A stretch of 64,000 bases of DNA, taken from contig NZ_CP051630.1 in the NCBI RefSeq assembly GCF_012848855.1, positions 2,149,501-2,213,500 on the forward strand, written 5' to 3'. Shown piece after piece: positions 14,261-14,345 of this stretch (position 1 is the stretch's first letter; every line of letters begins with the position of its first letter). Origin of the DNA: Pyruvatibacter mobilis (GTDB taxonomy: Bacteria; Pseudomonadota; Alphaproteobacteria; CGMCC-115125). Both the position numbers and the translations under genes were made by a program. The notes under the pieces were generated by a model that worked only from the letters and a program-made list of their open reading frames with translations, ran no database searches and had not been told where the DNA came from.

Positions 14261-14345
14261 GAATCGATTAGATTCCCGTTAACCTTGGTTAACACATTGA
14301 ATCTTATAAAAGATTCTTGACGGTGATTCGTGTCTGACTCAAAAT
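14261..14345 (+). promoter_or_regulatory. ccrM promoter region with six GANTC methylation sites
   Basis: GANTC sites start at 14261, 14271, 14299, 14312, 14325 and 14336: six in 80 bases where about 0.3 would be expected. TTGACG at 14317-14322 and CAAAAT at 14340-14345 are 17 bases apart and would place two GANTC sites between -35 and -10, as in GcrA-type methylation-sensitive promoters. A TTAA-N6-TTAA pair (14279-14292) is one base short of the standard CtrA spacing. Confidence 0.65.

Follow-up and report, generated by a model that had tools for sequence, protein, structure and literature searches.

GANTC sites within the predicted core promoter of ccrM in Pyruvatibacter mobilis and other Alphaproteobacteria

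What does it signify when the gene for a DNA methyltransferase is preceded by a cluster of the sites that its own product would methylate? The question was raised by 64,000 nucleotides of Pyruvatibacter mobilis (NCBI RefSeq assembly GCF_012848855.1, contig NZ_CP051630.1, positions 2,149,501 to 2,213,500; this whole stretch is called the window, and coordinates count from its first letter), in which GANTC sites are crowded in front of a predicted ccrM gene. In the alphaproteobacterial cell cycle the timing of CcrM holds a central place, and to our knowledge methylation control of ccrM itself is known from Caulobacter only, whose promoter appears to be without the layout described here. The explanation favoured below, with moderate confidence, is that CcrM targets are built into the core promoter of ccrM and that methylation feeds back on the gene. 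Papers are cited by PMC number, and those marked 'in part' were available as partial text.

The ccrM gene and its GANTC sites

The open reading frame at 14377–15570 matched the Pfam families N6_N4_Mtase (3e-72) and RAMA (1.5e-18), and its translation contains a DPPYN motif. The NCBIfam CcrM model NF050803 was matched over nearly its full length (1.8e-192, 638.8 bits), with its cut-off of 830 not reached; among the matches listed, there was one CcrM match per genome at E values up to 1e-90. Because of the near-whole-length match and the single match per listed genome, the frame was filed as CcrM-type despite the missed cut-off. The domain and model matches point to a CcrM orthologue, as the first-pass annotation had assigned it, and the avoidance of GANTC in the genome agrees indirectly with a GANTC methylase as its product.

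A promoter scan of 13900–14700 returned a sole sigma70-like site, TTGACG-17-CAAAAT at 14317–14345 (shuffles give 0.2). The gene, the predicted promoter elements and the six GANTC sites are as follows.

14377..15570, plus strand: ccrM, CcrM-type adenine DNA methyltransferase of 397 amino acids (domain and profile matches)
14340..14345, plus strand: predicted −10 element CAAAAT (promoter scan), base 14340 common to the GANTC site at 14336–14340
14336..14340, plus strand: site B, GACTC, fused to the −10 element, predicted −16 to −12 (site search; TTGAC-N14-GANTC register)
14325..14329, plus strand: site A, GATTC within TGATTCG, in the −35/−10 spacer, predicted −27 to −23 (site search; YGAKTCG match)
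14317..14322, plus strand: predicted −35 element TTGACG (promoter scan; TTGAC in 71/84 family representatives)
14312..14316, plus strand: GANTC site adjoining the −35 element, GATTC (site search; genus alignment)
14299..14303, plus strand: upstream GANTC site (site search; no site at the same place in same-genus genomes)
14271..14275, plus strand: upstream GANTC site (site search; no site at the same place in same-genus genomes)
14261..14265, plus strand: upstream GANTC site (no site at the same place in same-genus genomes; reverse strand CGATTCG, a YGAKTCG match)

A direct count placed all six sites (starts 14261, 14271, 14299, 14312, 14325 and 14336) where the first-pass annotation had put them, in the 80 bp from 14261 to 14340 immediately 5′ of ccrM. 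Its −35 (14317–14322) and −10 (14340–14345) elements were likewise supported by the promoter scan and by the class-wide comparison below. Of the two sites that it had set between these elements, site A does lie there and site B overlaps the −10 element at base 14340. Relative to the predicted start, GANTC sites would fall in the core promoter region, as at promoters of the GcrA type.

The background rate had been assumed to be about one GANTC per 256 bases, which was too high for this genome: 412 sites were counted in 464 kb (20 stretches of 20 kb plus the window), or 0.888 per kb and about one per 1,130 bases, and the whole 64-kb window held 48 against a mean of 226 in dinucleotide shuffles. 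Since the genome avoids GANTC, the ccrM cluster stands out more than had been supposed; Poisson arithmetic on 0.888 per kb gives six sites per 80 bp a chance of about 2e-10 per position, and among seven clusters with at least three sites per 80 bp in the 464-kb sample this was the densest. In Alphaproteobacteria, GANTC is described as generally under-represented and relatively enriched between genes (PMC3973325, in part). A second cluster in the same sample, of 5 sites in 105 bp (L204:2832-2936; G000:C1, about 1546832-1546936), sits 5′ of a DivIC/FtsB-type septum initiator gene, which is followed by a dehydrogenase E1 gene.

Promoter geometry across the class

Upstream regions of ccrM were compared in two sets. 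The named set comprised 80 loci from contigs of named genomes, 76 of them with at least 150 bp upstream. The family set comprised one representative from each of 84 families (by sample labels), taken from whole genomes and drawn from the CcrM matches listed, so that the CcrM proteins that diverge most are poorly represented; three loci with partial or weak CcrM matches (L107, L108 and L110) were left out of the family counts. As the named loci are mostly Rhodobacterales by their titles, their counts are not independent, and the family counts are the better guide, though families are kin too.

The shared core reads TTGAC-N14-GA(A/C)TC-A-N3-T, with the GANTC site overlapping the first base of the −10 element. 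Ahead of ccrM, TTGAC-N14-GANTC was present in 34/84 family representatives, where shuffles gave a mean of 0.14 and a maximum of 2. Of the 76 named loci 55 had it, and control DNA totalling 378,486 bp had it once. GANTC at a distance of N3, N4 or N5 from TTGAC was found in 18, 14 and 7 of the 84 representatives, respectively (shuffle mean for the three combined 0.28, maximum 2). When 67 of the 84 representatives were aligned on their last TTGAC, ignoring GANTC, the −10 region emerged with C at −12 (0.66), A at −11 (0.75) and T at −7 (0.78). All 36 families with at least one examined member of N14 geometry had the −11 A and the −7 T; of 970 oriented control GANTC sites from DNA flanking the named loci, 27 were followed by A-N3-T.

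At least three GANTC sites per 80 bp were counted in 54/84 representatives (shuffle mean 3.7, maximum 8) and at 59/76 named loci, versus 3/897 control windows; 32/84 representatives had at least four and 14/84 at least five, and seven were reached in L088, L124 and L131. The claim that P. mobilis has more sites than Caulobacter holds against the one species compared (Caulobacter segnis, L077, three sites), but high counts are not peculiar to this organism. At the level of sequence, the comparison shows strong selection on the N14 core geometry in front of ccrM in many members of the class.

Within the genus, represented by three further genomes, the three proximal GANTC sites are kept inside a block with few base changes, as is the extended motif TGATTCG of site A (14324–14330). 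The site at 14312 is GATTC here and GAATC in the three relatives, so that the free N alone has changed. The three distal sites are not found at the same places.

Could the sites serve some other DNA-binding protein, or reflect base composition, with methylation irrelevant? The DNA 5′ of ccrM is A+T-rich relative to the genome and a CtrA-like word lies upstream, both of which would suit such an account. Shuffles and control DNA, however, almost never yield the pattern, and in the class and genus alignments site A and the site at 14312 vary in the free N but keep G, A, T and C. We regard this account as very improbable.

The core also looks nearly specific to ccrM in the genomes that were searched. 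In the 464 kb of the P. mobilis genome, TTGAC-N14-GANTC occurred five times, and with A-N3-T afterwards at ccrM only. A profile of the core gave its best scored match at ccrM (E 0.002) and its next at E 0.59; 150 candidates were scored per genome (150/994 in this one), and weaker copies may escape. That second match was rejected as another core promoter, the stretch looking intergenic and repeat-like. With an E limit of 0.5 the profile matched 25 of 26 chosen genomes, each with its best match at the ccrM promoter by coordinates, and did not match the remaining one (G050). Three extra matches were set aside, one lying within a coding frame and two being unconvincing. Because the profile drew on many of the genomes searched, or on their families, the search tests specificity and not discovery.

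Candidate readers of the methylated sites

The favoured explanation can be put in more specific terms. The segment 14312–14345 would be the core sigma70 promoter of ccrM and would incorporate CcrM's own target sites, with site A in the −35/−10 spacer and site B fused to the −10 element. The methylated adenines of site B would lie at about −15 (top strand) and −13 (bottom strand), beside the base where the strands first open. The methylation state of these sites would alter promoter activity, and hemimethylation behind the replication fork, then full methylation restored by CcrM, would feed back on ccrM transcription. The likely reader of methylated site A in P. mobilis is sigma70-bound GcrA. 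For site B a more direct reading is probable, with RNA polymerase or CcrM as the reader, and the upstream CtrA-like site probably contributes to timing. The class-wide layout suggests that CcrM, through its marks, influences its own production. As to the sign, we lean towards activation, exerted through site A, site B giving a finer, state-dependent control. The first-pass annotation had seen strong evidence for replication-coupled feedback; selection on GANTC inside the promoter gives methylation-sensitive self-control good support, short of proof, but sequence alone gives neither the feedback, nor its sign, nor the coupling to replication. GC skew over the 20 stretches and the window gave no readable position for replication timing. 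Three of the alternatives that follow (GcrA alone, a negative loop and binding by CcrM) are sharper, overlapping versions of the favoured explanation, and their probabilities are not meant to sum to one.

The sign of the loop is where published data diverge. In Caulobacter, four of the five GcrA promoters tested lost 60-80% of their activity on mutation of GANTC (PMC3667746, in part), the ftsZ promoter is more active when methylated (PMC3708114, in part), and sites between −35 and −10 accompany activation at 40-60 minutes (PMC4287350, in part). Caulobacter ccrM is itself described, with citation of older work, as CtrA-activated and transcribed only from hemimethylated DNA (PMC2217572, in part), and as most probably methylation-regulated (PMC3973325, in part). 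Where GANTC upstream of cell-cycle genes was examined in PMC2877005 (in part), control by methylation could not be derived. The Caulobacter data point both ways as to the sign of the ccrM loop. A negative, on-demand loop, in which full methylation shuts the promoter and hemimethylation behind the fork opens it until CcrM restores the mark, would fit the description of Caulobacter ccrM; a site fused to the −10 element suits interference, and the layout needs no GcrA. The ftsZ promoter speaks against it, as does the one Caulobacter ccrM promoter compared (L077), which is without the core. We hold such a loop to be possible, though rather doubtful.

GcrA is encoded in the genome (G000:C1:2480614-2481087, 1.6e-55), and site A is a full match to YGAKTCG, which is quoted as the extended GcrA motif, with no such extended preference in Brevundimonas (PMC7987155, in part). 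In the 400 bp upstream of gcrA itself (L194) no GANTC was found; TTAAC words were present. With GcrA encoded and site A matching its motif, ccrM might simply belong to the GcrA–sigma70 regulon, the GANTC sites being methylated contacts. The gene had already been predicted to be in the class-wide core set of GcrA targets, in many of the 13 species compared and with loss in Caulobacterales, site positions not being considered (PMC7987155, in part). This was set against an association test over 80 family entries, 61 with and 19 without a GcrA match (G005, G014, G024, G026, G034 and G002, which are not in the GcrA sample, were left out). GANTC clusters were found in 40/61 entries with a match versus 14/19 without (Fisher p 0.59), the N14 geometry in 23/61 versus 11/19 (Fisher p 0.18) and YGAKTCG in 24/61 versus 6/19; the free base of site B was A or C in 25/26 and 13/13, respectively. 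The presence of gcrA was accordingly discarded as a predictor of promoter layout. Since the layout is at least as frequent without a GcrA match, GcrA cannot be its sole reason, and GcrA acting alone seems to us an improbable account, though one to be kept in view. The GcrA dependence put forward in the first-pass annotation agrees with the encoded protein and with site A, but neither is diagnostic, given the 19 entries without a GcrA match.

These absences were examined further. When the 19 GcrA-negative genomes were searched with PF07750 at a relaxed threshold, 7 had matches below the cut-off, of which the strongest (2.5e-4, G004) was a C-terminal piece. A home-made profile of 7 GcrA proteins, which scored two positive controls at 6.5e-47 and 2.7e-29, was run on 17 negative genomes and gave matches up to E 10 in 7, the best of them (0.0126) with internal stops. 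In six families (f124, f105, f136, f64, f30 and f106; 17 genomes) no convincing GcrA was found by the Pfam model, for which six of the 17 genomes were rechecked at relaxed E, or by the home-made profile. Among 14 promoters from these families, TTGAC-N14-GANTC was present in 10; of the remaining 4, three had a site at TTGAC-N3-5. All 14 had at least three GANTC sites per 80 bp, in a stretch reaching 110 bases past the match start. Three other GcrA-negative families (f91, f97 and f111) include a further sampled genome with a GcrA match, and the absences may be gaps or recent losses. Two f97 genomes of one genus (G189 and G264) both have the ccrM core, and GcrA (1e-19) was found in just one of them, from which it follows that absence from a single genome can be an assembly gap.

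Several points weigh against the favoured explanation. The transcription start of ccrM is a predicted one; neither the N14 nor an N3-5 site was found in 31/80 family entries, and some loci had no GANTC upstream of ccrM at all; in C. segnis (L077) the three sites are scattered and TTGAC-N14-GANTC is missing; the shuffles ignore shared ancestry; and the layout persists in the six families in which GcrA was not detected. That persistence obliges one to consider an unrecognised reader, RNA polymerase or CcrM itself, and these families are a natural experiment on who reads the methyl mark. Tentatively, and with odds that we put on the low side, many Alphaproteobacteria may have a GcrA-independent methylation sensor, in which N6-methyladenine at −15/−13 would be read directly by sigma70–RNA polymerase or CcrM and would set the methyltransferase level, GcrA being optional.

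In another version CcrM would bind the unmethylated or hemimethylated GANTC sites of its own promoter and repress it or help to melt it. Restriction-modification methyltransferases can be autoregulated, which is the likeness drawn here. CcrM is reported to recognize GANTC by strand separation (PMC10359602, in part; also the title of a 2019 paper by Horton). This favours the account, as do the many target sites on the core promoter, and the independence from GcrA would be explained. CcrM accepts any N, however, yet 38/39 family entries have A or C as the free base of site B, which indicates that more than CcrM recognition has been selected. Binding by CcrM is judged unlikely.

Upstream features and comparison with known systems

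Two further features lie upstream of the core promoter.

14278..14293, no strand assigned: GTTAACC-TT-GGTTAAC, CtrA-like, containing TTAA-N6-TTAA; both GTTAAC words kept in the genus
14223..14243, no strand assigned: two inverted DnaA-box-like words, TTATCCACT and TGTGGATAT, not aligned in the same-genus genomes

TTAA-N6-TTAA can serve as a CtrA motif (podJ P1; PMC4287350, in part). Here it occupies 14279–14292, about −73 from the predicted ccrM start, where a CtrA site would be expected near −39; the word TATAAA at 14305–14310 would place it near −39, and is not kept in the genus. The full CtrA motif, TTAA-N7-TTAA, stands 5′ of ccrM in L001, L057 and L066, which have no GANTC cluster, and in L022, which has both; at the first three, CtrA control may possibly replace the methylation layout. 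A general exchange of CtrA-driven for GANTC-driven promoters was considered and dropped, as TTAA-N7-TTAA was found in just 3/84 representatives, too few, and no association was seen. The words at 14223–14243, DnaA-box-like by the usual consensus, also scored as a terminator-like hairpin. Between rnhB and ccrM the window has a small gene (13834–14145) resembling AhpD/carboxymuconolactone decarboxylase; in the three same-genus genomes the apparent end of rnhB, as judged by eye, is directly 5′ of ccrM.

Methylation feedback on ccrM is a known idea; what is new, as far as could be checked, is that a grammar with a site fused to the −10 element is widespread and also occurs where GcrA was not detected. 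No description of the fixed −35/−10 register was found in the accessible parts of the open-access literature (including PMC6473078, PMC11514494, PMC7403470 and PMC13076061), and one may exist in subscription papers or supplements. A class-wide grammar with the enzyme's target in the −10 element would give epigenetic self-control a precise site.

With the predicted core GcrA regulon (PMC7987155, in part) the present layout shares the gene, the class-wide conservation of GANTC and the reported loss in Caulobacterales; that prediction, in the text available, differs in reporting no fixed −35/−10 register and in covering GcrA-bearing genomes only. The Caulobacter ccrM promoter is alike in having GANTC upstream of ccrM, and the TTAA-N6-TTAA seen here is CtrA-like; it differs, by the example of C. 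segnis (L077), in its three scattered sites without TTGAC-N14-GANTC. The GcrA promoters of Caulobacter crescentus (mipZ, podJ and ctrA P1) resemble the P. mobilis promoter in having GANTC in the core, in genomes that encode GcrA and CcrM, and site A at about −27 compares with the sites reported at −28/−29 in ctrA P1 and −24 in podJ P2 (PMC4287350, in part). Unlike them, the promoter described here has a second site that overlaps the −10 element and keeps a set spacing from the −35 element, belongs to ccrM, and has a layout that persists in families without detectable GcrA.
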